Shown here: piece by piece, positions 1-17,986 of the stretch
Layout: each line of letters begins with the position of its first letter
Numbering within the stretch: the stretch's first letter is position 1
Assembly (NCBI GenBank): GCA_029834535.1
Contig: JAQMWT010000362.1
Location: 124,001-188,000 of the forward strand
Reading direction: 5' to 3'
DNA length: 64,000 bases
Origin: Chrysophaeum taylorii
Taxonomy: Eukaryota > Sar > Pelagophyceae > Pelagomonadales > Pelagomonadaceae
Notes under the pieces: model-generated
What the model was told of the DNA's origin: nothing
Database searches by the model: none
What the model saw: the letters and a program-made list of their open reading frames with translations, nothing else
Made by a program: the position numbers and the translations under genes

Positions 1-723
1 GCTCCGGTCGACTTCGCGGTGGCTGATCAGTACCGATACAGCGTCATCATCGTCGGGCGTAACACGAGTAGCATCCGGAGAGGTTGGCCGTGCCTCTCGA
101 GCATGCGCCCGCATGGATTCCTCCACCATTCGTCGAAGTCGATCGTCGTCGATCCGCTGCCGCTCCACTTCTGAGCGTTGTTGTTGAGCGTCGCGGCGGG
201 TGCTCTCAAGTTCACGTATGACTTGCTCGATCTGCGACTGGTACATCTCGAATCGTTCGACGATGGTCTGCAGAACCTCGGGGTCGACATCCACGCGAAA
301 ATCTGTCGCTCTCGTATTCGCAGATGGTGGCCTAGGAGGTGCACTCTCCTCTGGTCCACGCATCGCCGCAAACGGTCCGGGTTCCGCTCGAGATGACTCC
401 GTAGCATTCATCGCACGTTCGTGGGGTCGTGCGTACGGGAACGTCGGCTCACCCGGTCTTGAAGTTGCGTCTGGCGCAACCGTAGCTCCCCCTTCGCCGG
501 CGCGTGGATCCGGAAGGATGACCACGCTTGGGGGGCTGTCGAGGCTATCAGAGGATCTTGCCTCTCTTCCGATGCCACTTTCCTCGGCTTCCGGCCGTTG
601 AAAGGGCGTACTGAATGGTGTTCTCCCAATAGACGCAAATGGAGTCCCTGCACTGAATCGTTGCAGACGCTCCTGTGCGCCCCGAAACCACTGCGGTCGT
701 TCTGTCATTGGCCTCTCTGCCAT
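1..723 (-). CDS. Gag-like open frame, runs off the left edge
   Basis: An ATG at the high-coordinate end opens a frame of 241 codons with no stop before the window edge, so the protein is incomplete. The first about 140 residues are Pro/Ser/Gly/Arg-rich and low complexity. From about residue 145 to 205 there is a strongly charged stretch rich in Gln, Glu and Arg (for example IEQVIRELESTRRDAQQQ) that should form a coiled coil, followed by an acidic DDDD patch. No enzyme motif is visible. The architecture (disordered start, coiled coil, acidic patch) resembles the gag-like first frame of the Gypsy element at 8,300, and the surroundings are transposon-rich, so a Gag of another LTR element is my best guess; a host protein is not excluded. 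What follows beyond the edge would decide it. Confidence 0.45.
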   Translation of the reverse strand, partial: MAERPMTERPQWFRGAQERLQRFSAGTPFASIGRTPFSTPFQRPEAEESGIGREARSSDSLDSPPSVVILPDPRAGEGGATVAPDATSRPGEPTFPYARPHERAMNATESSRAEPGPFAAMRGPEESAPPRPPSANTRATDFRVDVDPEVLQTIVERFEMYQSQIEQVIRELESTRRDAQQQRSEVERQRIDDDRLRRMVEESMRAHAREARPTSPDATRVTPDDDDAVSVLISHREVDRS

Positions 724-2489
724 GACCGCGCTTTGCCCGGATAATAGGCTTAATCCGGACGCTCACAACTCACTTGTTTTATTCTTTTCGTCAGACGACA
801 ATTGCCGGCAGCCGTCTGACTGCGCGCTGTACCGGTGCGCTGGACTTACGGAAGTATTTGCCTTGCGCGTGAAGACTATGGACGGCCTTCCCGGTGCTGT
901 CGCTCGCCGTCAGGGAGGTGGTCTGCCTCGCGCGAGCTAAGTTAGGTCTTACTCTGTCTTTGCCTCGTAGGTTTTTCGATGTTTGCCTCAATGAGTCGTA
1001 GTGACTCCGCTCCCCGTACGATCCGAATCACGTAAAATGAACCCCGCGGCAGTACCCGTGATCCTCTGGATCTTCACCCACAAATGCGTCGGCTTCGCAC
1101 TCACTCGACCGTTACGAACCGACTCGCCGCCGAGAAACAGGAGATCGATAGTCCGGGAGTTGGACTATCGATTTCCCGTTTCTGAGACCACTGTAGTGGT
1201 TTTCTCAGATACCCGCCCCTCCTGGCCGGACCAGGGGCCTCAACAACCCTTTCTCCCAACCCGAACCGCGGGTGAAACCACCACACGCCCGATCTCAGCG
1301 TAATACCTCACGCCATCACGAAATCGGACAATCAAATGAGGGTAATATCAAGAAGACACCAAGAAAGCAATACAAATGCCTGGTACATTGGGTTCAGTGG
1401 GAGCGTAGGTGAGGGTGTCAAGATGACACCCCCCCATAAGTGCAAGGTCAATACCAGGGCAACAATCAGGGTAAGTCAGGTGGCATGCAGGCAAGTGGGG
1501 GAAATGGGCGCTACTGCCACAAAGACGGTCGTGGACAAGCTCGCCCACCACGCCAATACCAAGTTGCGTGCCTTGGTCATTTCATGTTCAATAGCAACTT
1601 CGGTCAACGCCCTGGGTGTTGGTCTTAGGCCCGACGGGCCTCGCTCGCGCTCAGGAAGGTGGCGAAGAGAGTGGTCCCGCCTATCCTAGTGCTATCTAGT
1701 GCTTTGCTATCGACCCATGACGCCTACCAGGCCCGCCCGCTTGCGCGCGTGTTGCGGCTACTCGCGTCTTGGCAACGACGACGGCGTCGTCACCGGTTCC
1801 CCCTATGTGGCTGTCGAGGCTGCGCGGCGTTCTGTCCGGAGCTTAGCGCTGGTCTCCTTGACCATCCCGATGTCCACCACCTCATCCAAGTCGGACAGCA
1901 TCAGCACTTTTCCGGCATTCCCGTTTTTAACGGCGTGCCTATCGGGTCGTCCGGACTCCCATAAGCTCCTCCACTGTGCATCGCGAGGTTGAAGGTGGAG
2001 CTCGAGAATGCCGCCCTCCTCCAATGCATGTACTCCCGGGCCAGCTACTCTATCGCACCGTTGGCACGGACTACTTCGCGCAGCATTGCTACACCTCTAC
2101 CGCCACGACCGCGCTCCGCCGCTTCGACGGTGTTTTTAACTTCATTGTAATAACTGTCCTCAGCCGGTCGGGTCTTTACGCTGGCGACATAGTAATATCA
2201 AACGCCTTCGTCGTCCCGCGCGGACTGGTGGTGGCGGTATCCGCACTCGCACCGACCTTAGCCCCGCAGCCATTCGTCGTCGCCGCAGGCCAAGCCCTCC
2301 AGCACCTCGTTGACCGCTGCAACTCTGTAAGCGCTGTCGCGGTCCTAGAACACCTACCCCTCGGCTCGCCTCGGTCCTGGGCGCGACTCCTTCTGCGTCG
2401 GCAGTGAGATACGTCACTGGCGCCTAATCCTCCTCGGAGGGGCAGTATCATGAAATATTGTGGCATAATGCGACCGGAGATGGCATGGT
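724..2489. other. Non-coding stretch with hairpin cluster; decayed repeat DNA
   Basis: No convincing gene. Short open frames exist on both strands, but none shows a known domain or a consistent frame. Around 1,440-1,630 a plus-strand scrap has a Gln/Gly-rich run followed by an isolated YCHKDG, vaguely like a decayed zinc-knuckle Gag, too weak to call. A cluster of three hairpins at 1,134-1,240 is listed separately. The segment probably consists of untranslated or terminal sequence of the element whose gag-like frame starts at 723, plus older repeat debris. Confidence 0.4.
1134..1240. repeat. Three consecutive hairpins
   Basis: First hairpin: arms 1,134-1,154 and 1,162-1,182, 21 bp each, 7-base loop, with two transition mismatches that would still pair as G-U in RNA; its core is ATCGATAGTCC. 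Second: TCTGAGACCACT (1,181-1,192) against AGTGGT-TTT-CTCAGA (1,195-1,209), with a three-base bulge. Third: CCTGG/CCAGG around 1,221-1,235, extendable by a GCCCC/GGGGC pairing. They follow each other without a gap. Wobble-compatible mismatches hint at RNA-level structure, but a foldback DNA element is equally possible. Confidence 0.6.
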
Positions 2490-5400
2490 AAATCAGGACG
2501 TGAGATAGCGAGCACGAAGCCGAAGGAAGGGGTGGGCTTCCGTACTGCGGGTGAAGATATCGCTAAGATTGTCAAGACGGGGGACATGCTGGGGGTCAAT
2601 AATTGAACAGTACGAGGGAGATCAAAATCGTCAAAAAGTGTGAGAAGCCGGGAAAGTTCAGCAGTAGCAGTAGCCAGTGGTGGAGTGGCGATCATCGGGG
2701 TTGTCGGCCCACCTGGAGTCGGAATAACCACAGAGACGAAGGGTAGAATCGCGACCAAGAACGAGGGCACGATTTGGAGTACCATTGAGGTAGCGGAGCG
2801 TGTGACTCAAGGCGTGCCAATGGGGAACCGTGTGCAGGACAGTCACCGGCAGAAAGACGAAGACCTTTTGGAGCAGGAGTCAATTCGGGTTTACTGTTGA
2901 TGAAGCGATGTTCCGTGAGGATTTCACGGATAGCGTGTGATTGGGCGATAGCGATCGTGCGACGTGCGCGATCACGCGTAATGCGAAGACCAACGTAAGT
3001 TTGGAGATGGAGTTCGTTGACATCGGTGAAAGCTTTGAAACGCAGCATGCAATCTTGGTAATGGCCAATGCAAAAACGGGGGTGAGCCACAAGAAGGTCA
3101 TCAACAACGAGAACAAGGCGCAGAACCACAGTAGAATTAAGCATGAGTGTGTAGCTGCAAGTATCACCAGATCCGCGGACAAAACCACGATCATTGACAA
3201 GGAAGCGTTCAAAGTAAAGCCACCAGTTTCGACAAGCTTGTTTGCAGCCGTACCAAGAGCGACGTAGTTTGTAAGTGATTTTGGAGCCATCTTTGGGTTG
3301 GCTGGGAGCATAGCCTTCGGGTGGCCAGACATAGATATCTTCTGCAATCGGGGCTTGTATGAAAGCAGAGCTGACATCCAACTTATGCAAATCCCAGTCA
3401 TGAACGGCAACGAAGGTGAGAAAGAAGCGGATAGTAACAATGTTGGCTCCAGGAGAATAGGTGTCGTGATAATCAAGGCCGTAAACCTGGGTGTAACCGC
3501 GGACACGAGACGAGCTTTGTACGATTTTAAGCGGCCAGATTCATACTTCATGCGGAGGACCCACTTCAAAGTGCAGATGTTGCCAGAAAAAGTAGAGGGA
3601 ACGCGAACAACATCCCAGCAACCGAGCTGACCGAGGGAATGATATTCTTTGGCAATGGCTTGTAACCAGCCAGGACGTTCAGGATGTGTGTGGGCTAGAG
3701 CTTCGCGTAAATGAGTGGAAGTGATAGCGCCGTCATCAATGAAAGAATAGTGAGACGTTGCTTCGGAAGCAGAGTAGAGAACACGATGGGCTTCGACACA
3801 TTAAGGATCAACAAGGGTGTGGGCGAGACAAAGGGGAAGGGAGACATAATGGACTAACAAACGAAAACTAGCATAATTGATGTACAGGGAATGACGAGAT
3901 GAGACAGAATCGACACGTGATGACACAGAATCAACAGTGCGTTGTGGTAAAACGCCAGAATTTTTGGTTGCAGTGACTGTGGTAGGTATTTCAGAATAAT
4001 GTGCGCTTTTGTCGACTTTGCGCGGTCGGCTCTGTTTTGCTCGACATTGTTTTGCGCTTTTCTCAGGAGGTTTTGGGTTCTTTATTTTGTCGGCTCTGGT
4101 GTGCTCGACTTTGTTGTGCACTTTCCTCTGGGGGTTGTTGGTTCTTCTGAGTTCATGAGCTCGTAGGATGGGTCGGTTCACGTGATGGGGTAATCAGTCC
4201 CAGTGAAACCGGCGCATTCTCATCAAACACAGGGGGCAAGGGGGCAACAGCGGAAGCACAGGTGACAATCGGGCAACAGCAGGAACAGGTGACAATGGGG
4301 CAACAGTAGAAGACATGGAAGACAAACTGGGGGAGGCAATAAAACAGGTCAGGAAACAACAAGGAGAGTGGCCTTCGGTGGGTGACATTGCAGGAAATTC
4401 GATAAGCGAAACTGTCAGCAAGATCGAGGTCTGAAGAACAATATCGATAAAGGTGCCTGGTAAGACTTGCGTTAGGCGATTGTTGCCACTGAGAGTCGCA
4501 GCGGGGCAAAGATAGCAGCAACACAGGCGGGTATATATAACGGCAGATGCTTGCCTTCACGACGGATCGCGTGACTTCACGACGGATCATCATCGGCTTG
4601 TATCGTTCATCGCTTCGTTGCCATCATGTCCTCGATTGAGATTAAGAACAACAAACTCGTACAAAAGCTCGACGCCTATACTGGTGAGCTTCATTTCTTT
4701 AATCATTGGCAGCGGCGCCTCTTGTACCTGATCCGACGTACCCTCGAGCGTGTCCTCGCATTTGACAACGCGCATCGTGCTTCACGACTTACTGGCTTTG
4801 TTTTATCGTCTCGCGTTTCGTACCGACGAATGTGGTAGTACCCTCGAGAAGTTCAACAACAAACAATTTAGACGGCATGCACAACCACTACCGTCGCGCT
4901 ATCCGCCGCGTCGTCAGCCACAACCCCGACTTCAGACTCTTCCAAACTGACCTACCCTAGACGCTCCCCTTTCCCAAAAACCTGGCTCTACTCGATTCCG
5001 ACGCAATACCCAATGTCATTTTGGCGGCTGCAAGGATCACTTTAAGAGGGAATGCCGAAAGTTTCAAAGTTCCTAGCTATTCAACTACAACGCCCTCCCC
5101 ACCATCGCCGTTCTTCTCAACAGCGCAACAATTCCAATGACTCCAAGAACACCCAACAACACCAACCCACCAAAACCAACACCACCAAAACTACCTTTTC
5201 TGCTCTTATGCCTACTCCAACCTTGACTCATTCTAGTTCCACTCCGCCGCTTTTCTTAATACCACCATCTATTACACCCCCTTCACCGCCTTCTCCGGCC
5301 ACACCCAACGTCTCACATCCACCTCCCAATACTCTGTCTTATCATATTTGCCACCTTTCTGAAAATCGAGATAATTCCAAGTCAAAGTGTGTACCGCCGA

Positions 5401-6510
5401 TTGTCTGACGCAAGCAAATCAACAACCCCATCCCATTACACGGAAGTCCCTCGTTGTGGATTTTTTTTTTCAGCTCCCATTGCACAGGAGCCCTTCGTTC
5501 TGTATTTTCAGCCATTCGTTGATCCACCCCTCGTTCTGTATTTTCACCTAGTCGTTGCTCCCCTCCTCGTTCTGTATTTCACCTATTCGTTGATCCATTC
5601 CTCGTTCTATATTTTCAGCTATTCCTTGATCCACTCCCCGTTGTGCATTTTCAGCTATTCGTTGATCCATTCCTCGTTCTATATTTTCAGCTATTCGTTG
5701 ATCCACTCCTCGTTGTGCTTGTCGGTTTTGGTAAAACCAGCGAATCACGTTCCATCGCGCATTTCACCCGACACATCTAAGTTGTGCCTGTCAATTTTCG
5801 CGTGCGCACCTTTCGTGCTTCCTATGTGGTTGGATCGCTCATCTTCGGGATCCTGGACCGACGCTTCTTTGCGGTGTTATTCGGCTTCTTCATCTACGGT
5901 ATCAACACAATGCTGTGGTTATCCTTCGCGCACTATCTGCATTTCGCCGCTTTTCTGCTACAATTCGGTTTTGCTATGGAAGTGAATTCCGTGCTCAGCA
6001 CCCGCACGCTATCTGCAACGTTCTTACGTGTCACCGCTGTTTTGCCACTATCGCCAACTTCTACTGAAGTCTACTCGAGTATGTCGAGCAAAGATCGGCC
6101 GCTTGCTCCTCAAAAGCTGGCCCATATGGAAACTTCGTTCTTGAGAATGCGAAAAAGGGCCACTTTCTTATCTGCCACAGCAGGCAGGCATACAGCAGCC
6201 TGATCTACCCGTGTTCGTTCCTTGTAACGCTGGCGCGTCAGAAGTCTTCCATCTTCGCGTAAAGGACGCGGTCATGAACATGGTAACTTGCTCGCGCCAC
6301 AACGACCAAACACCAACGTTCGCATCAAACCTGTTTACGCCTGTTTTTTTTTATTCTGTCGACTCCGACCATCGTCATAGCCTGGTCACCATGCAACATA
6401 TCTGCCCAAAGGCAACGTTCTCATCTTGGTAATGGCCGATGCAAGAACGGGGGTGGGCCACAAGAAGGTCATCAACAACGAGAACAAGGCGCAGAACAGT
6501 AGAATTAAGC
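2490..6510. mobile_element. Copia-type LTR retrotransposon remnant, rearranged
   Basis: Fossil of the Copia (Ty1) superfamily, broken in many places. Between about 2,490 and 4,545 the coding sense is minus: reverse transcriptase (KLDVSSAF, YVWPPEGYAP, SWYGCKQACRNWW, VVDDLL) at about 2,900-3,570 and RNase H (GYSDSRWADNPDDRHSTTG) at about 2,650-2,850. Between about 4,620 and 6,425 the gag side of the same family reads on the plus strand, so one half is inverted relative to the intact order of the sister copy at 45,442-50,060. A short second scrap of reverse transcriptase (about 6,427-6,510) follows in minus sense. No terminal repeats were found at its ends. It is clearly decayed, and I would judge it older than the sister copy. 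Confidence 0.85.
5490..5725 (+). repeat. Minisatellite of about 37 bp inside the Copia remnant
   Basis: Six to seven imperfect copies of a unit of about 36-38 bp built on CTCGTTCTGTATTTTCA and CGTTGATCCA. The same array occurs in the sister Copia at about 48,500-48,740 in the opposite orientation, so it belonged to the family before either copy inserted. Confidence 0.75.
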
Positions 6511-7497
6511 ATACGATGGCGGGCGCTCTCAAGGACGTGTGGGATGGACTCCGCACCGAAGTCATGCCTTAGCACGGCGGTGATGGCTCCGGCGACCTGC
6601 CAACGTCCGACGGTCCCCTCTCTTGCGAGTTTGTTTGTCTTCATGAACGTCCTCATGGACCCGGCTGCTCCGGCCCCCGCTCCGGAGTTCCAACGTGCTC
6701 TCGTTTCTCAGCGCGAGGTGCCTCGGGCTGATGTGCTCCGGCGACAGGTGACCTCGCACCGATGATGCACGTCGGATCGCGGCATCCTCGTGAGATCGCC
6801 TATTCACCGGTATTATCAGCTCGTGGCCCAACTCGTCGCTTCGAGCGCACATATGCTGCTATAGCCTGAGACGCGCGTCCAGTACTTGAGCTATCATTCT
6901 TCCGATTGCATGGGCCGCGTGGATACTGCGTCCTTGGAACTGACGCCCTTCTCGACGCGCATGGTCGGCTCCTCCTCACCCACAATTGCCTTCTCAACCA
7001 CGACTCAACGCGGGCAGTCTGTTGCGACGACGTGTTCGAACGGACCATCGCCTACCTCCGCGAAGCAGTCCGAGGTCTTCGGCATTTTTACCGACTTCGT
7101 CGCCCCTGCCGTCCGCTCGCGCCTCTACGGCCGGTGTGACGGCAAACCTGTGAAACTCCATCCTCGTCGCGCTCGGCAGTGAGAAGCCTTCAAAGTAGAG
7201 ACGCTCACCTGGGCGATCAACAAGCGAAGCTTCCCACTCTACCGATCCATCCCCTGTCGACAGGCGCGCCGCGCAAGTCTACGGCGCCTACGTTCGCCAC
7301 GCTAGTGACATTGATAACCCCCTTGCGCAGGCTGGCGCCACGCTGCCACACAGTCTTTCTTTTGGGGCCCGTCGAGTGGCGCCTGTGAAGCTACGGCACT
7401 GTGGACGGCCTCGTCTTCGGTTTCTTCGCCGACACCTGCGCGGCACGGATCGCATTGCACGTGCAGAGGACGAGCATCCCCAATAGGCCTTTCAAGC
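6511..7497. other. About 1 kb without a recognisable gene
   Basis: Several plus-strand frames of 70-100 codons overlap here (for example around 6,900-7,180), but none has a known motif, and the frame that looks most protein-like changes along the way. It lies between the Copia remnant and the left LTR of the Gypsy element and is probably decayed transposon or pseudogene sequence. I could not name it. Confidence 0.35.
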
Positions 7498-7502
7498 AGC
7501 AC
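7498..7502 (+). repeat. Target-site duplication AGCAC, left copy
   Basis: AGCAC directly precedes the left LTR and recurs directly after the right LTR (17,974-17,978). A 5-bp duplication is the normal signature of Gypsy integrases. Confidence 0.85.
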
Positions 7503-7839
7503 TGTGGCGGCAACTCCCGCCTCCTAAGGCTTACCCCTCTTCTAGCCCCCCCCTTTTATCAGGGGCACCCTACTCCGTCATGATGATGTCAGTTTTCTTT
7601 ATGACATCATCTTCCTTTTCCGTGACATGTGTCACCCTGATTTCTGTGTTTCGATAATATCTTAATCATAAATCAACAGCCGATCCTCAAGTTGTGAGGA
7701 CCAGGCACGGAAGTTGTTTGTGGTTGTGTGGCGGGAGAACGGCCATCCTCGTCCAGTGACTCCATCAAGGGCACGGACGCGAGCGGCGAGCCAGGATTCG
7801 AAGGCACGCCAGGTAGGCCTAAATTCTCCTTACGCCACA
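7503..7839 (+). repeat. Left LTR of the Gypsy element
   Basis: 337 bp bounded by TGTGGCG and CGCCACA, a short terminal inverted repeat. About 95% identical by eye to the right LTR at 17,638-17,973. It starts directly after the AGCAC target duplication. Confidence 0.9.
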
Positions 7840-7841
7840 GG

Positions 7842-7858
7842 TGGTGGGGGAATACGAG
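7842..7858 (+). promoter_or_regulatory. Probable primer binding site
   Basis: TGGTGGGGGAATACGAG begins two bases after the left LTR. Its complement ends in CCA preceded by a seven-base acceptor-stem-like strand, as expected for pairing to a tRNA 3' end. The tRNA species cannot be named from this window. Confidence 0.6.
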
Positions 7859-10800
7859 ATTCGAGCGACCATATCGGTCGCAGCGAACGAGTGCATCTTG
7901 CATTCTCTACACGGCCCGGACAAGCCGTGCGCGCCCTGATCAGGCGCGCCGACGAAGATTTCCAGGAGGACCACTGCCGTGGGAAAGTTCCCCGGCCGGA
8001 TACGCTAGTCGTCGGAGGTGACGACGCGCGATTCGGTTCTAGCCGACGCGCAACCCGGGTACCGCTGCCGCAGGCGAGCTGAGTGAGATCGCAACTCACT
8101 GAGGCATTGATTGCCGGGCAGAGACGAATTCTGCCGCCCACCGGACTGATAGATCGGTCGATGGAAGACGCACGCGACGACGATATTACGCGTGTCGTGG
8201 ACGAGTAGAAGTCCCAGAGTCGAAGGAGCACGAGAACGACGACGACTCAACCATTTTGGACCCGCTCTGATCTCGGCCGATTAGAACGAGCCAGAGCCGA
8301 TATGGAAGATGATGATGCTGCCGACGAGCAGATGCGATATGACGAACCGCCAAGCCGTCAGGATGAGATGAGCGAGGGGAACGATGATGATGATAACGAT
8401 GATGAAGAGCTCGACACTGAAGGTGACAACGAGGAAGAAGAGCTAGACTACAACAACGGCGAACCCGCGGAGAGACCGCCGGGAGGACGACCGACAGCTC
8501 CGCCAACGCGTGCACGAACCCCGGGTGTAAAGGGAATTAATGAGTTCTACGAGGCTCATTTGCGGGCGTTACGCGAAGAGAACGAACGCGCGCAGGAACG
8601 ACTTTTAAAACAAATTGAAGAAGAGAACGATCGAAAGGAGCGGCCACAGCGGAAGGAGGCAGAAGAATTACGAGGGCAAGTGCGGAGGGCCAACGCTCGA
8701 TCAGATGACCTCCAAGATCAAGTAAATTCGTTGACACGAGAAAGAGACGAGTTGCGTACGCCGAGTCGATCAAGGCGAGCGAGCAGCCCGGGGTCCCGAG
8801 CTGAGGAAGAACCGCCAACTACACGACCACGCGCGAAAGCTAGGAAGCCGCGCTATGAAGACGACGATCACGAAGAAAAGGAGGAGACGCGTGGCGACGG
8901 GAAAATCGACAACCAAGAGTTCTTGATGGCTTTCACGGATCGGTTCGCCAGCGCGTTAGCCAAACACGATCGCAACAAGGATCGGCGATCGACCTCCGGA
9001 TTAAAGACCGGAACTTTTAAACTTGTTCTTGATGGACGCGATCAGGACCAGTTCGATTTAGATGCGGGCGCGGTGATGAGCTCGTTAGCCGAAGACCATT
9101 TTAGCATGGAGAAGCCGCGGTACCTGCTGCCCGCGAGCCTGTGCGAGACAGTCGCACCAATTTTTTTGAGAACACTTGAAGAAGTACGAAGACCTGTGTA
9201 AAGATCTCGATCACCCAGCGTCTTTTTATTTACGTCGGGATATCGACGATGAGGAGTACGGTTCAGTGGTACGACGATTACGACGACTGAACGAGAAGTA
9301 CTGCCTCAAGATTTTGAAATATTTCCGAGAGAGTTGCCCACTGCCGGTGACGGCAGAGGAATCGCTACGAAAATTGCAATGCACGACCCAAGCGACCGTT
9401 CCGAAACGCTCTGGGGGACGCCACGTGCATACGTATTGCATCCAATTTCAGAAAGAGGCCATGACGTACTGTTCTGTGGCCAACCGGGATATCAACGATG
9501 TGGAGATCATCTCTTACTTGATACGTGGACTGGAGTCCAGCGAATTGAAATCCCGCGTGCGAACCATGCGCAGCGGGCATCCGACGACGTATAAAACGTT
9601 TATGTCTACGTTGTCATTGATTACACGGCTCGAGAACGATTTCGCAACCGCAATGGCGGAGAATAACAGCCGAATTTCAACGAACCCATCGGGCGGGAAG
9701 CCGCAGAAGCCACCGTCTGGACGCGGAGGACGAGCGCTCGCCTCGGGAACGAAAGATAAAACGACGAAATATGAAGCATTGCGTCTCGAAGATAATCCGA
9801 AAAAGTGGTTCGAGAGCACATGCAAGGAGTGTGGGTTTTTCTTAACGACCCACGACAAGGATGAACACGGGAACCGGGTCATTTGCAACCGCGAGCCCGA
9901 CGACTATTATGTGGCGATGTGTAAGTACATCGAAGACGGCAAAAGCCATTTCTCGGGGACGATGGGAAAGCCGACACAAGAAGGATAATCATTCGCGTGA
10001 CGACGGCAGTTCCAATGCCACCCTCGGTTCGAGCGCTGCTCACGACATTCAGAGCAGACTCAACGATATGGGCACGCAGCTGACCACGGTTATGGATTCC
10101 GTGAAGCACTTGAAAGATGGACACGGCCGATCGCCTTCGACACGACCAGGCCGTCGAGATAGCCGGAGCCCCCGACGCCGCGACAAGTGCCGTAGCAGCT
10201 CGCGCCCGCGCCGACGGAAAGACAGCCGGAGCTCTAGCAGACATTCACGCCGCCGCAGCCGACGAAGATCTCGCGATCGAAATTCGGACGATGGTCGTTA
10301 CCGGGAAGACTCGGGACATTCGTCTGCAACGTTCGCGTTTACGACCCCTTGCGGTCAACAGGTACCATTAGGAGTGATGGTGTACGCGAACACGGCCACC
10401 AGCACCGACTTCGCAGCCGACGGCCCTTGCCGCGGCCGCATTCGACGATCTTGCTCGCCCGCCGATGGACGAGCCACCCAACGATGTGCTGACCGATCGT
10501 CGGTCTTTGGCACAGGTTTATGAGGAGATGTCGAGCGATGAACTCGAAGATTCGAGCGACGACCTCGAAGCTCCGCGATACTGGGAAGGCGATTCAGATT
10601 CGGAAGATTCGGAAGATGAAGAAGCTACACCTTGCGAACCTGTGTCCGCGATATCGTTACTTGACGAGTCGTCCACGGACGACGCGCCGTTTGTGTTTGA
10701 CGAGGAAGCCCTCGACGCCATCGGCTTATCTTTGGACTCTCCAGGGACGACCTTTGGCGACCGAACTGGATGTGAGCCAGACAAGGGTTTCTGCAGTGAT

Positions 10801-12281
10801 AGCTCGTGTGATCATTCGACGGACGAGACGATGACCATCGCGAGTGATGCAGACGGCGATCCTACGGTAGAGTTGACGTCGGGGACGACGCCGTCTTTTT
10901 CTGCGGACCCCCCCGAAATGGTTTCGGTCACGACGGACCGAGCCACGGACACGCCGCCGGAAGAAAAGGATAGATTTAATTAGAAGATTAGCAGCGTTCT
11001 GGACTGGGACGAAGACGAGCCGACGTGGAACCTGCAGGATCGGTGGGCGAGAACTAGGAGCTTCTTGCTAAAGAAGCCACCAGAACAACCGCTCAGCTAC
11101 GGACTCGAAGCCGCAGCCGACACGGAACCGATCGCCGAGGATGGTGATGATCAACCAACGACGAATGAATCTACGGATGCGTTCTGGAAAGACTAAATGA
11201 ATGAGTTTTTGGAGAGGTCCTTTGCTTCCAAGAACAGCGAAGATCGGGATCCCCTACCAGCACTGATTCCCTCCGAGATTGTCTTGGAGGAAGAGCGGAA
11301 GCCGCCAGATAAAGAGGCTGCCGCGAGCGTTACGTCGATGACGCTAACAACAGATGATACGAGAGCTCAAGCCGCGGTATCGATGCCCAACCCCGGAGAT
11401 GAGCGAGTCAGAGCCTGATGTGCTCACACTTCGTTGGCGCCGCGAGATGGCAAGACGATCGAAGATGATTTGGTTACCCTCAGTTGTTTAGATACGGGTA
11501 CTCTTACATTTATGGCCTGCCACATCTACAGGAATCGTGACGGACCGAAATTCTCGACGACCATGGGTGTCGATGGAATGGCAGATGTTTCTTATATTTG
11601 CCGAGAAATGGTCAGGAAGCTGGCCGAAGATAACTTAATGTTCGATGAAGGCGAACTTCCGATTAAGCGCAAGCTGTACGGATCAGGGTTGAATACGACG
11701 ACGATCTTTCGTTGGATCGCGATTCGGGTCGCCCTCGCCGACCACATCGCCGCCCCCATTGTCGCTATTGTGGCCGATACGAACTATCTGTTCCTGTTGG
11801 GAGGGCGCGATATACGAGTTTTAGGAGCCGTCGTGGACTACCCCCACGATCGGATCTGTTTTTATCGAACCCAAGTCGTCTACGGGCGCAAGAAGATTAA
11901 AGTCAAGGATGAACGAGTCGATGCACCCATCGTGACCTTTCGATCTATTTACGATCGAGACCCGATAACCGTACCGATTTACAATCATCAACACGATGCC
12001 TTTCGGAAGAGTCTCGACCTAGTCAAGACTCGAGTTTACGCTCGTTTGAGCACGATTAAAGTTCTCCGCAGCCCGCCGCCGGAACGAACGGTGGCCTTGG
12101 CTACGCGGGGACATGCTACGACCAAATTCTCCCCCGCTCCGGGATAAGACGCGCGAAGAGTAGTGGCATACGCTGCACGCACGCTTGAAATCGAGCCCGG
12201 TCGAACTTACAATCTACCGGTTATTTTGTCGAAACCTATGGACATGGGACAGGTTTTCGTCGCTACGTTTGCTGAAAACGA

Positions 12282-13733
12282 GTGGGAGTTGTCGAAGGAA
12301 TGTGTTCTTCTTGCGAAGAGCACGACCGATCCGCTGCTCGGGTTGCGGTTACCGCCGCGGAAGAAGTGCCGACGGTCGTCACTCAAGGCGAAGTCCTCGC
12401 GATTGGCGATATCGATCGGTACGAAGATGAGTTGAACGTCACTACGATCAACGAACTTACGAAAGAATGTGAAGAAGGATACGACAAGGGGAGCCTTTCT
12501 TTCACCGTTTCCGTCGCTAGTCATTTGACGCATTGCGACGCGTCTCCCCCGCCGATGTTGCTGAGCACGGCGCAGAAGGACGCTACGACCGCTATGGCGG
12601 ACAAGTCCTCCCTCAAACGACCCGAAGGCGACGACGATTTTGCTCGAAGGTCGGAAGAAGATGAAAAGAAGTGCCGCGAGATCACCGAAGCGGAGATCCG
12701 CCGCCGATACGAAAAGGTTCAATGGCTTCCAATCACTTATCGCAAGGTGGTGATGCTGTTCAGTGGAGCCGGGGGCAGTACTTTAGGTCTCCAACGAGCC
12801 AACGAAATGTGTGGGACGTCGTTTCGAGTCGTGCTAGCACTCGATGCGTCGGACACCGCCAACCAGATCCACCATAAAAATTTTCCGAATATTCCAGTGG
12901 TGCAGCACACACTGTGTGGTCGCTATGCTACAACCTTACGGTTGATCGAATCTTATTTACCGTACGCGGAATGGTCGTCGTCGATGTGTGTCGCGTCGCC
13001 ACCCTGCGTACACTCCGCTCTGTGCAACTTGACTTCCAGAGATGCTGGGAAGGAAGTCACCGCTACCCACTCGACGATGAAATTATGCAAGATGGCTGGT
13101 TTCTTCATGTGGTTGATAGAGCAGGAGGCCTCGATTATTTCTTACGTTGCACGTTTGCACCCTTACGTGTACGTCGTCAATTTTTACGACATAACGCCCA
13201 GTTTGATGAGCTGTCGCGTGCGATTGTTGGTTTCCAGCTATCCGCTCCATTTGCGCGCAGTTCAAAAGACTTGCAAGAATATGCAGCAAGAGTTCGCCGC
13301 CGCACTTGGCTACGCCGACGAACGACATTTACTTCAGACGAACAATTTAGGATCATCACGAGCCGTGACAGACGCAGCTTATACCGTTGCGCGTGTCCCG
13401 CTTCGCTTAGGACCGCACCGTTCCGATTACAGATCCCTGAATCTGAAAATGACTTCGGAGTTGCTGACAATGCCCCTTGATTTTGATTGGGCCGGCTTCT
13501 CCAGGACGACCTCGTTGAAACACTTGGCGTCCGTCGTGCCACCAGACACGATGACTTTATTAGTTCTCGATCTGCACAACTCTGTGACCAAGTATTTTCA
13601 CCTGAGCGGCGAAGCGTTGCCGTCGGCGTTGAGTCCTGCAGACCGACCGTTTGATTATTATTTGCACATTGATGACACCACCCTTCGTCACGTACAAGTT
13701 CCGCTGTTAAACACGCGCACACGTGTGTCGTAA
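12282..13733 (+). mobile_element. C5 cytosine DNA methyltransferase-like part of the Gypsy element
   Basis: A frame of about 480 codons lies inside the element between the protease-like and reverse-transcriptase regions. An N-terminal acidic/charged segment (about 150 residues) is followed by methyltransferase motifs: LFSGAGGSTLGL fits motif I (SAM binding, the DLFSGAGG type); ALDASDTANQIHHKNFPN fits the motif II region; VASPPC fits motif IV with the Pro-Cys catalytic loop; CRVRLLVSS fits the position of motif VIII (QxRxR). The remaining motifs and the target-recognition region are less clear to me. Such enzymes move a methyl group from SAM to carbon 5 of cytosine in DNA. Retrotransposon-borne cytosine methyltransferases are known from dinoflagellates and charophyte algae; here it lies within pol. 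I infer it is element cargo, not a host gene, from its position between pol domains and flanking LTRs. Confidence 0.8.
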
Positions 13734-16700
13734 GATGGGTCTCGACTGATGATCTTCAAGATCGCACCAAATGGAAACCTCCAGAGGTACCGTTGATTCC
13801 GCCTGCAACAGATGAGCCGGGGACGTCTCATGCTTCTTCTGCTGCCCCCCCCCGACAACCAAATTTGGATGTTCCGCCTGATCCTGAGCGAGATCGGGAA
13901 CCGAAGATTAAGAGCGAGCCGAGTGTTCGTGTCAAAGGCGAGAGGATCAACAAAAGCCACCCGGAAGTGAGACTAAAATATGAGAAGAAGTTTGATGTGC
14001 AATGGAAAGATGCGCCGCGCGATGCTGAGGGTGCACCGCTGCCGCAAACTCTGAGCATGTCAAGGACAACGAAGCAATGAAAGTTAAAATTCCTACGAAG
14101 GAAGAAGTTGACAAGGCTGTTCAGGAGCTGGGAATTCCTGACAATCCGCACTTAGATGACGAGGCGAAACTGATGCTCCGTCACTGTGTGCAATATTCTT
14201 GGGCCTTTTTCGACCCGATTATGAGACCTGTGGACTCACCTCCTGTGTCTCTACGATTCAAAGACGCGAATCCGCGACCGATTAAGATGACGCCCTACCG
14301 ATTGACGCCTGCGAAGCTCGATTGTCTCCGCAAGCAGATCAGCGAGTGGTGCCGGGATGGAGTCATTCGTCCGGCCAACTCACCTTGGGGCTTTCCTGTG
14401 TTGATGCTTCCGAAGAAAGGAGCTGAGATTGGAACGTCCAACGCGTCCCGTGCTGCAGTTGACTTACGTCAGCTCAACGATCAATTGGTCAATGACAGTT
14501 GGCCGAACATTCGACAAAATGATGCTTTTGCTGTTCTCGCTATGCGACGATGGCGGACATGCATTGATATTAGATGGAGATACCACAACCTTCGTCTGGA
14601 TCCGGCAGCGCAAGACGCTGTCACGATGGTTAGTCCACTTGGCGCTCATAGTTTCTTGCGATTACCTCTAGGTGTAAAGACGGCCGGAGCTCTTTCCTGC
14701 AAGCAAATGGCGAGCGACCTTTCGAAATGGATGTATCGAGACTTGGTTGCGTTTGTTGACGATATTATGATGGGATCCGACGATCTTCATCGACATTTAC
14801 AAGTCTTGATCGAAGTGATGTGTCATTTGGCACAGAGAGGGTACAGTGGTCGAACCGCGAAGTTCCACCTTCTCAAGGATGATATAGAATTTCTGGGACA
14901 CATTTCGACCCCAGAAGGCTTGAAGCCGAATCCGAAGACGCTGGAAGCACTGCAGAAGATGCCGATTCCAGGTACTTTGCCTAATACTTCCCCGAAGACC
15001 CAGATACGCTCTTTCATCGGCACGAGTAATTATTGCCGGCGATATGTGAAGGGCTAGTCGAAGATCGTGGAACCGCCGAACGATTATGCCTCGAAGGTGT
15101 AAAGTTCGAGTGGACGCCCGAATGTCAGAAAGCTTGGGATACGATTATTGAAGCTTTGGTTGATTCCTGTGGAGTCTACCACCCCGATTATGATCTGCCT
15201 TTTCAGATCCGATCAGATACTTCCAAGGATGGACTTGGAGCCTATCTCTTCCAGATTGTCGAAGTCAAGGACGATGCCGGAAGAGTAACTCGAGAAGAAC
15301 GAGTGATTGAATATTGGAGCCGAGCTGTGCCGAAGGAGATGCGCAATTATGAGCCCCGTCGGTTGGAGCTGTTTGCAGTTATCCTTTCTCTAGAGCACTT
15401 TCGAGCCTACATAGAAGGGCACCGGACTGTTTTGGAGACCGATCACCGAAATTAGACGTTTTTACGTAAGGCGACGCACTCGTCTGGACAGCTTGCTCGT
15501 TGGGCGGTGCGCCTCGCCAATTTTGACCCTGAACTTGATTACAAACCGGGAAAGTCACCGGGAATGAGCATCCCTGACTGCCTCTCCCGCATTCCGATAG
15601 ATCATGTCATCGAGACTGATGAGTTTGGAGAACCTTTGAACCACGCTTATTTGGTGTTCCAAGAGCTTCCCCGACCTGTTGATGACCGAGGAATTCCCGC
15701 TTCCGGCCGCCACTTCATAATATCGTTTGTTACGACCGAACTGCCGGAAGACGAAGACCCTGAAAATGATCCGATGAAGTTGGCTACGTCTCACGCTACG
15801 AGACAACGTCGGAAGAACCGTGTGCGCGATGAGCCGCAGATCTTCAAGGACGCACCCGCTTAAAAAGATTATATCGATAAGATACCCGATAATATGACGC
15901 TCGCTGAGATAGCAAGAATCTGATGCTACTTACGAGGATATTCGCTACCGGATGGCCCAAGGTCAGACGCCGCGACGTTCCCGAGCGAACGAACGATTCG
16001 AAGTCGTTAAAGACGTTCTTTACCGCATTTCTGCTGATTGCACCCGATGATTGTTGCACCTGCTACGTTGCGCAAGCGCATTATTCGACTCTACCATGAC
16101 ACTCCGGTTAACGGTGGTCATATGGGACGTCACAGTACCGTCCAGGCTATCCAAGAACGATTTTGGTGGCCCCACATGTCGAACGAAGTTGGAGTCTTCA
16201 TTGCTGAATGTTTATTTTGCCAGAAAGCTCGTACGCCGGAGCCGAAACGAGCTGGACTCTTGCAGCAGCCCGTCTACGATGGTGATGGTGCTGTTCTCTG
16301 CATGGATTTATTTGGACCCTTGCCCAGCGCTGGTCCCGAGACGTATCTTCTAGTATTTTTTGATCCGTTCTCGCATTTATTGATTCTGGGTGTTTTGAAC
16401 GATAAGACTGCTGAGTCTGTCCTCGAGTCTTTTGTCATTAACATTCTCCTCAAGGGCTACTTGCCTCAGATGATTCGTACCGACAACGGTAAAGAGTTCG
16501 TGAGCAAGTTGATGCGCGAGTTTTGCCATCTCTTCAACACACGATACCAAACTACGATTCCCTATCATGTCCAGTCGAACCCGGCTGAGCGTGTAAACCG
16601 AATTATCAAGGCCTTCCTCCGTGCTTGCCTTCAGGGCCGGAACATCACGGATTGGCCCGACTTTGCTCATTATATTGCGTTTTGTTACAACCGCAAGTTT

Positions 16701-17637
16701 ATTCCAGGCACGCAGATTTCTCCCTTTATGCTGCGCCTGAACCGTCAGCCGATGTTACCTACTGACTATACGCTTATGGATTTTGATACGCGATTGTTGC
16801 CGAAGACTCGCTCTGATGCAGTCGCCGAGACTCGTGAACGATTGAAGTATCATACGAAGATCGTCCGCGAGGCTCGTGATAAAGCTTTGAAGAAACAACG
16901 ATTGGCTTACAATGCTGATCATGTCGATGTTGAATACAAGGAAGGATCGCACGTTTTGCTCTACATTCCTTTCCTCCAGAATAAGCTTCGACCGGAATGG
17001 CGAGGACCGTTTATTATCAAGGAACGCCTTTCCCCGGTCACCTATAGGATTGAGTCTCTCGACTCTCCGCCCGAATAACGACGTGTTCATGTTAGTCAGA
17101 TCACGCCTGTGATGGTACCTCCGATCGTTGATCAAACCATCCGCAAACCCGAAGAAACCTTCCGTGATGATTATCAGCAACGGTAAGTTTGTTGTTTTCC
17201 GATTCCTGACCGGAAGCGCTCTGATTGGCGCAAGAAGATTTACGTTGCCGAAGTTTACGAGCCTTACGATTACCAGAATGATCGTGTTGCTCTACATTTC
17301 TATTCCGATTTAGGTCCGAACGACGATGTCGCTTATTTCAAGCCGACCTCTCATCTTTCGCACCGCAAACTCAAGCCCGAGTTCAAGGACGTTGAAGGTC
17401 GCAGTTTCACCGACAAGTCCCGGATCTCATCCAACACAACTCCTTGTGTCACGGATTTCGCTCCGCACGAGATTGATGTGTTGATCCCCAAGTTTACTTT
17501 ACGCAGTGGCCGAGTTCCTGAACCGGTCATCACCCGCGTTTACCAGAAGATTCGTTCACGAGATGCTCGTAAGGCGAAGCCGCGCTCCTCGCGCTAGCGC
17601 CTCGCTGGGGCAGCTCGAATTCTTACCAGGGGAGTCC

Positions 17638-17973
17638 TGTGGCGGCAACTCCCGCCTCCTAAGGCTTACCCCTCTTCTAGCCCCCCCCCTTATCAGGGGC
17701 ACCCTACTCCGTCATGATGATGTCAGTTTTCTTTATGATATCATCTTCCTTTTCCGTGACATGTGTCACGCTGATTTCTGTGTTTCGATAATACATTAAT
17801 AATAAAGCAACAGCCGATCCTCAGGTTTTGTGGACCAGGCACGGAAGTTGCTTGTGGTTGGGTGGCGGGAGAACGGCCATCCTCGTCCAGTGACTCCATC
17901 AAGGGCACGGACGCGAGCGGCGAGCCAGGATTCGAAGGCACGCCAGGTAAGCCTAAGTTCTCCTTACGCCACG
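17638..17973 (+). repeat. Right LTR of the Gypsy element
   Basis: 336 bp, starting TGTGGCGG and ending CGCCACG. A purine run (AGGGGAG) just upstream is the likely polypurine tract. It is followed at once by AGCAC, the second copy of the target duplication (17,974-17,978). Confidence 0.9.
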
Positions 17974-17986
17974 AGCACCAACACGA

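Follow-up and report, generated by a model that had tools for sequence, protein, structure and literature searches.

A diverged C5-cytosine methyltransferase domain in the pol region of a Ty3/Gypsy retrotransposon family of the alga Chrysophaeum taylorii

Background

DNA methyltransferases (DNMTs) encoded in retrotransposons, one of them within a Gypsy Pol, have already been published for dinoflagellates and Klebsormidium (PMC5890265). In the current analysis we have considered a stretch of 64,000 nucleotides from the pelagophyte alga Chrysophaeum taylorii (GCA_029834535.1, contig JAQMWT010000362.1, positions 124,001 to 188,000 of the forward strand), referred to as a whole as the window. It encodes a Ty3/Gypsy element with a region resembling C5-cytosine methyltransferases inside its pol.

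The closest described system is KnitGypsy-Dnmt3 of Klebsormidium nitens, which has a C5 methyltransferase in a Gypsy-type Pol open reading frame (ORF), is intronless and multi-copy and is under purifying selection (PMC5890265). Compared by description only, it differs from the window family in its DNMT3-related domain and DIRS-like repeats, whereas the window family has direct long terminal repeats (LTRs) and a diverged domain that is not placed. An initial sequence-only reading of the window had regarded the in-pol layout as uncommon; it does have this precedent. The SymbioDIRS-Dnmt3 and SymbioLINE-Dnmt elements of Symbiodinium are comparable in that hundreds of retrotransposon-borne DNMTs are found in the genomes of the genus and are kept by selection (PMC5890265). 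They are DIRS (tyrosine recombinase) and LINE elements, in contrast to the LTR element with DDE integrase described here, and SymbioLINE-Dnmt is CG-depleted whereas the window Gypsy family is not. The Sola/ParB-methyltransferase elements are also algal mobile elements encoding a DNA methyltransferase, but they are DNA transposons and their enzymes are predicted to be of the N4-cytosine or N6-adenine type and not C5 (PMC12477816).

DNMT3 members have been referred to 'LTR Copia and DIRS' elements in PMC12344493, which cites PMC5890265; the text of the latter says Gypsy and describes Symbiodinium Copia without a DNMT. In the available text of the literature searched (PMC5890265, PMC12344493, PMC6338049, PMC9998398, PMC12477816, PMC3145265) we came across neither a C5 methyltransferase in a stramenopile Gypsy element nor a characterised example from Copia. 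As far as the searches show, four features are new within that literature: the lineage in which the element occurs, the divergence of a domain that does not group with DNMT3, a position immediately ahead of the reverse transcriptase (RT) that is common to relatives, and the presence of a Copia capture alongside it in one genome.

Identification of the methyltransferase domain

The domain is encoded on the forward strand in an open frame at 12276-13733 (GTG-started ORF 12282-13733), with its C5-methyltransferase-like core at 12717-13625. The core includes motif I LFSGAGGSTLGL (12756-12791), motif IV ASPPC (12993-13007, catalytic Cys codon 13005-13007), the Glu of an EQE at the ENV position of motif VI (13119-13121), motif VIII CRVRLLVSS (13212-13238, arginines 13215-13217 and 13221-13223) and motif X SVVPPD (13530-13547). 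The names I, IV, VI, VIII and X are presumed to apply to these sites. LFSGAGGSTLGL, ASPPC and CRVRLLVSS sit where the sequence-only reading had placed them; motif IX RSLN...LLTMP and motif X, neither of which it had named, are also present.

The window ORF scores 25.3 bits against PF00145 in the Pfam database (curated cut-off 22, E-value 1.3e-5), the alignment covering residues 157-213 only (motifs I-II). A profile of the Gypsy domain, built from 30 of the 31 rows of an alignment (A1) of its copies, aligns with C5 methyltransferases over 264-276 columns, in which motifs I, II, IV, VIII, IX and X coincide. The score of this comparison is 85.5; none of 60 column-shuffled controls exceeds 19.1, and the reversed alignment scores 13.7. 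The reference methyltransferases in the first comparisons numbered 4 and 6 owing to too strict a filter; with a larger set of 29 sequences the score is 69.9, against a maximum of 23.3 in 40 shuffled controls. The earlier proposal of a C5-methyltransferase-like domain inside pol is thus borne out by a Pfam score above the cut-off and by shuffled controls that fall far lower. The catalytic Cys is invariant in all 31 aligned copies, chosen for lacking stops, and the Pro of motif IV is kept in more than 90% of them.

The domain was found to have the fold of the C5-methyltransferase superfamily. An AlphaFold model made from 31 near-identical copies was discarded, since its predicted local distance difference test (pLDDT) value was 30 and the folds that it matched were for the most part generic nucleotide-binding ones; the usable second model drew on 19 other C5-methyltransferase sequences in its alignment and is in that respect partly circular. 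These comparisons indicate that a C5-cytosine methyltransferase domain, complete though strongly diverged, is present in the window ORF and is homologous to the C5 methyltransferases.

Distribution in the genome

In the 70.8-Mb genome there are 321 occurrences of a 34-base pattern around motif VIII when up to 3 mismatches are allowed (0 for the reversed control), and 356 of an RT pattern (control 0). Searches of the genome with the domain of the window copy and with that of a second subfamily revealed at least 89 matches each (88 of 1191 and 89 of 1186 candidates scored, respectively). The two subfamilies, referred to as A and B, are about 73% identical and both keep the domain. Of 52 loci searched for motifs (two places counted twice), every one has the three domain motifs, always in the same order; the protease-like motif precedes them in 50 loci and the RT motif follows in 49. 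The domain is a trait of the whole Gypsy family and not of one copy.

The search for further copies called for by the sequence-only reading has thus been made. Its accompanying question, whether the domain is always present, is answered in part: when 100 listed places of each pattern (of 321 and 356, respectively) were paired by offset, at least 56 of the 100 RT places had the domain at the expected offset, the call for the other 44 depending on domain places beyond those listed. None of the 100 RT places listed was shown to be a close sibling devoid of the methyltransferase, though the 44 may include one. RT copies on six contigs (C24, C53, C30, C122, C552 and C653) were suspected of lacking the domain, and five of them were rejected as such, the first four having the motif at the right offset and C552 a domain match; C653 is left as a candidate. 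A genome-wide search with PF00145 (at least 57 matches, 123 of 474 candidates scored) gave none at a listed place of the Gypsy family.

Selection on the domain

Ratios of nonsynonymous to synonymous substitution rates (dN/dS) were obtained from 50 loci (30 A, 20 B), of which 43 were retained for the domain after 7 were dropped for stops or length; 27 of the 43 had a usable RT stretch and one more was dropped, leaving 26 RT rows. Between A and B the domain copies have a median dS of 2.0, which is saturated, a dN of 0.118 and a dN/dS of 0.06, the RT value being 0.023. Within A the ratios are 0.22 for the domain and 0.20 for RT, and within B 0.23 and 0.28. These values show clear purifying selection on the domain, with a long-term constraint weaker than that on RT.

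Relatives and age of the capture

A protein search with RT-RNase H gave 104 proteins (7997 candidates scored), two of which carry the domain. The first, P0008 (982 aa, from another dataset), contains the domain in full, then a linker of the same kind and RT, with 31% identity over 328 aa (E-value 4e-40); it retains the catalytic Cys, the Pro-Pro, the Glu and the motif VIII arginines. The second, P0005, from a transcriptome of Chrysocystis (Pelagophyceae), contains the C-terminal part of the domain (28% over 119 aa, E-value 1e-6). The other 102 RT-RNase H proteins have no match to the domain profile. Of the 11 closest proteins (P0003-P0013), seven start within or beyond RT and two, P0003 and P0004, in the linker; these nine are thus uninformative on the domain. 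Distant Gypsy proteins such as P0014, P0017, P0022 and P0023 (about 30% identical in RT) extend from protease through RT and have no such domain. P0003 and P0004 (61% and 52% identical in RT-RNase H) are recorded as proteins of bacterial metagenome-assembled genomes, of Pseudomonadota and Planctomycetota; this assignment probably reflects eukaryotic contamination of the bins.

The domain of P0008 matches 124 places in the Chrysophaeum taylorii genome. Forty five of them were picked by eye as absent from the A and B listings, and may still include A or B copies missing from those listings. An RT match lies 355-400 bp behind on the same strand in 8 of the 45 (38 of 99 RT rows used). Since the order in P0008 is the same and the Chrysocystis element carries the tail of the domain, the capture is old and common to a wider Gypsy lineage. 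A and B, P0008 and the 8 further places share the layout of domain and RT, and the capture predates the divergence of RT to about 50% identity. The capture that the sequence-only reading had proposed for this lineage is neither young nor limited to the window element.

A protein search with the Gypsy domain itself (7783 candidates) revealed one homolog at E-values up to 0.01, a tandem methyltransferase on a JGI contig (P0001), which we judge to be bacterial. No homolog of a second domain, the Copia domain described below, was found among 4956 candidates. Viral contigs gave no relative of either domain, and genome contigs, searched with the Gypsy domain only, gave none of that. In a 20-row tree the Gypsy domains and P0008 form a clade of their own (100/99); the tree includes no named cellular DNMT3 or KnitGypsy sequence and, with its few references, does not place the source of the Gypsy and Copia domains.

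A second methyltransferase in a Ty1/copia family

Two of the genomic Pfam matches are stand-alone genes, on contigs C634 and C621, and the other 55 do not fall, by eye, at listed Gypsy places. Six of the 55 were read (L003-L008, on C4, C120, C64, C326, C683 and C564) and belong to one repeat family with 70-93% DNA identity, to which up to all 55 may belong. Locus L043 has on one strand a gag-like region, a methyltransferase (46.3 bits), a weak integrase core and, downstream of the integrase, RVT_2 (49.4 and 68.8 bits), an arrangement that identifies it by its predicted domains as a Ty1/copia element. The integrase rve scores of this locus and of L042, 13.1 and 16.4 bits, do not reach the cut-off of 32.6. 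In L041 and L042 the methyltransferase is preceded by a protease-like D-G-G-A-S motif. Coordinate pairing with RVT_2, using just 30 of 150 RVT_2 rows, joined none of the 55 Copia domain places. In L042 a Copia-like RT and RNase H occur at 1-2199 on the forward strand in opposite orientation beside the methyltransferase copy, as a nested or neighbouring element.

This family (L003-L008, L041-L043) resembles the Gypsy family in being of the LTR class and in having a C5 methyltransferase downstream of a protease-like motif; it differs in its methyltransferase, in RVT_2 and in an integrase that precedes RT. The Copia methyltransferase has LPCQ and ENV and matches reference C5 profiles with a probability of 91-94% (shuffled controls were run for the Gypsy domain only). 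Compared with the Gypsy domain it gives an hhalign probability of 0.5% and stands on a separate branch of the 20-row tree, and the two are unrelated beyond the superfamily. Thirteen of 15 Copia pairs have a dN/dS of 0.13-0.19, and the two closest pairs one of 0.36-0.40. Since a second, unrelated family holds a different enzyme, retrotransposons seem to take up such enzymes repeatedly.

The stand-alone frame on C634 (L001, 8824-9801) is a full-length C5 methyltransferase of 360 aa that is close to neither retrotransposon domain. The gene on C621 (L002, 15462-18998) combines, in a single open frame of 2086 aa, a methyltransferase, cysteines of RING-like type and a match to SNF2, and is a predicted host DNMT5-like gene. 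Together with Chrysocystis as the nearest named relative, it suggests that the host is an ochrophyte and perhaps a pelagophyte.

Organisation of the window copy

The Gypsy element of about 10.5 kb lies at 7498-17978, its features being on the forward strand. Its 5' LTR (TGTGGCG...CGCCACA, 337 bp, 7503-7839) and 3' LTR (336 bp, 17638-17973) are 95.5% identical over 337 columns and are flanked by a 5 bp target duplication, AGCAC, at 7498-7502 and 17974-17978, as the sequence-only reading had noted. A likely primer-binding site starting with TGG (7842-7866) looks complementary to a tRNA 3' end. It is followed by a gag-like region in two frames (8209-9988), similar to a region of the subfamily B copy L040, and by a protease-like region (11419-12147) with GVDGMADVSYI instead of the usual D-S/T-G-A. 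These two regions have no Pfam match above cut-off and were assigned by position and motif. The protease-like motif of the window copy reads V-D-G-M-A-D where the Copia counterpart is D-G-G-A-S.

Downstream of the methyltransferase frame are RVT_1 (14029-15057, 43.1 bits), RNase H (15030-15455, RT_RNaseH_2, 82.5 bits), the integrase with H2C2 zinc-binding domain and rve core (16038-17078, 66.9 and 49 bits) and a pol C-terminal tail (17187-17597) conserved in the copies L039 and L040. The order RVT_1, RT_RNaseH_2, H2C2, rve is that of Ty3/Gypsy. The window copy is split over several frames, with the methyltransferase domain and RT in different ones, and is a degenerate, non-intact member of the family. 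In long-frame copies the domain is in one frame with pol, as in L039 (contig C5, 544300-554299), which has a single frame of 3063 aa. A second copy on C5 has a frame of 3067 aa. L039 has no match to the capsid-like gag part of the window copy (9170-9985) and is possibly a derivative relying on the gag of other copies.

Possible role of the domain

In the reading that we favour, to which we give about an even chance, the Gypsy lineage fused a C5 methyltransferase into pol long ago and keeps it as a standing enzyme that methylates its own cDNA. An ancestral Ty3/Gypsy lineage of the alga would have gained the enzyme between the protease-like region and RT. Made within the polyprotein, it would enter the particle with RT and methylate cytosines of the new cDNA of the element before or around integration, which may mark the cDNA as self or quiet the element while it stays intact. 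The favoured substrate would be the element's own nucleic acid in the particle, cDNA in the first place and RNA in the second. The SymbioDIRS-Dnmt3 domains methylate CG in yeast, and their authors suggest self-methylation of cDNA (PMC5890265).

A number of observations weigh against such an enzyme. Not all retrotransposon DNMTs tested in yeast were active, those other than SymbioDIRS-Dnmt3 having been inactive there (PMC5890265). ENV of motif VI reads EQE, with the Glu kept in more than 90% of the aligned copies and the Asn-Val absent; the GN of motif X is absent, AS preceding VVPPD; and motif I of P0008 is altered. CpG observed/expected is 1.33 in the window element, against 1.30 at 18001-64000 and 1.10 at 1-7500 (L039 1.33, L040 1.20). 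C-to-T change between copies at CpG and elsewhere is 0.0308 and 0.0293 in A and 0.0202 and 0.0210 in B (pairs of 90-99.99% identity only, 408 in A and 171 in B). In the Copia loci CpG observed/expected is 1.00-1.08, a possible mild depletion, and the C-to-T values are 0.1075 and 0.1032 over all 15 pairs. Among trinucleotide contexts, ACT and CCT rank at or close to the top in A, B and Copia, at 1.3-1.75 times the mean C-to-T (L003-L063, with coding constraint left in and no host control); this excess, which is also to be counted here, would fit a non-CG target as a hint at most. ACG is raised in Copia alone.

The suggestion of the sequence-only reading that the element may influence its own methylation or mimic host silencing is thus a conjecture. 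Lasting CG self-methylation receives no support, as CpG in the Gypsy copies measured is neither depleted relative to most of the window nor hypermutable. The power of this test is limited, since host DNMT5-type methylation, if present, has left no CpG trace either. CpG sites that are not hypermutable leave room for an RNA or a non-CG target.

An alternative is an active RNA methyltransferase of DNMT2-like kind that acts on the genomic RNA or the tRNA primer and aids priming, packaging or escape from RNA sensing. C-to-T is not raised at CpG, the best four Foldseek matches by E-value are DNMT2 chains, two of four PDB profile matches are DNMT2, and an RNA target has also been proposed for SymbioLINE-Dnmt (PMC5890265). 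The PDB matches are not significant, however (E-value 0.7-0.8), and the structural alignment has DNMT1, HhaI, DNMT2 and DNMT3 within 2.4 Z units, with DNMT1 above DNMT2. We consider this alternative possible, though well short of the cDNA reading. Slightly less probable again is a domain that has lost catalysis and that pol retains for binding nucleic acid or for structural reasons, or that serves to decoy the methylation factors of the host. EQE for ENV, the missing GN and the altered motif I of P0008 mean that the enzyme could be weak or dead; selection alone is no proof of catalysis, and the domain evolves faster than RT. The invariant Cys of the stop-free copies and the residues retained in P0008 argue against such a loss.

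It is improbable that the domain works for the host or on DNA other than that of the element, methylating invading DNA viruses or the host genome so that the element is tolerated. Such a role has been proposed in general for transposon methylases (PMC6338049) and there are several hundred copies, but the copies that carry the domain are mobile and bounded by LTRs, a DNMT5-like gene of the host is present in the genome, and no domesticated single-copy version was noticed, though no search was aimed at one. Chance resemblance, or a host gene that landed later in one copy, would agree with the weak single-sequence Pfam score and with the lack of genomic Pfam matches at listed Gypsy places, and is very improbable in view of the shuffled controls, the copy counts and the same position in the loci read, the 8 further places and P0008.

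Implications

A wider proposal, which we offer tentatively and hold to be rather doubtful, is that a C5 methyltransferase has twice become a constitutive pol enzyme of LTR elements, in Gypsy and in Copia from unrelated sources, each time just downstream of the protease-like region. Leaving no CpG methylation on inserted copies, it would act on particle RNA, the primer, transient cDNA or non-CG sites. If true, this would be a step of LTR-element replication not described so far. That such enzymes were captured more than once, and at comparable positions in the polyprotein, speaks for a role in replication that is under selection. This role is open to direct tests, given the hundreds of copies and a domain of a size suited to expression. 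The family described here extends methyltransferase-bearing retrotransposons to a third group of algae, probably the ochrophytes, and shows that an LTR lineage can retain a capture even as its RT diverges to about 50% identity. In one genome the two main LTR superfamilies hold two unrelated captures.
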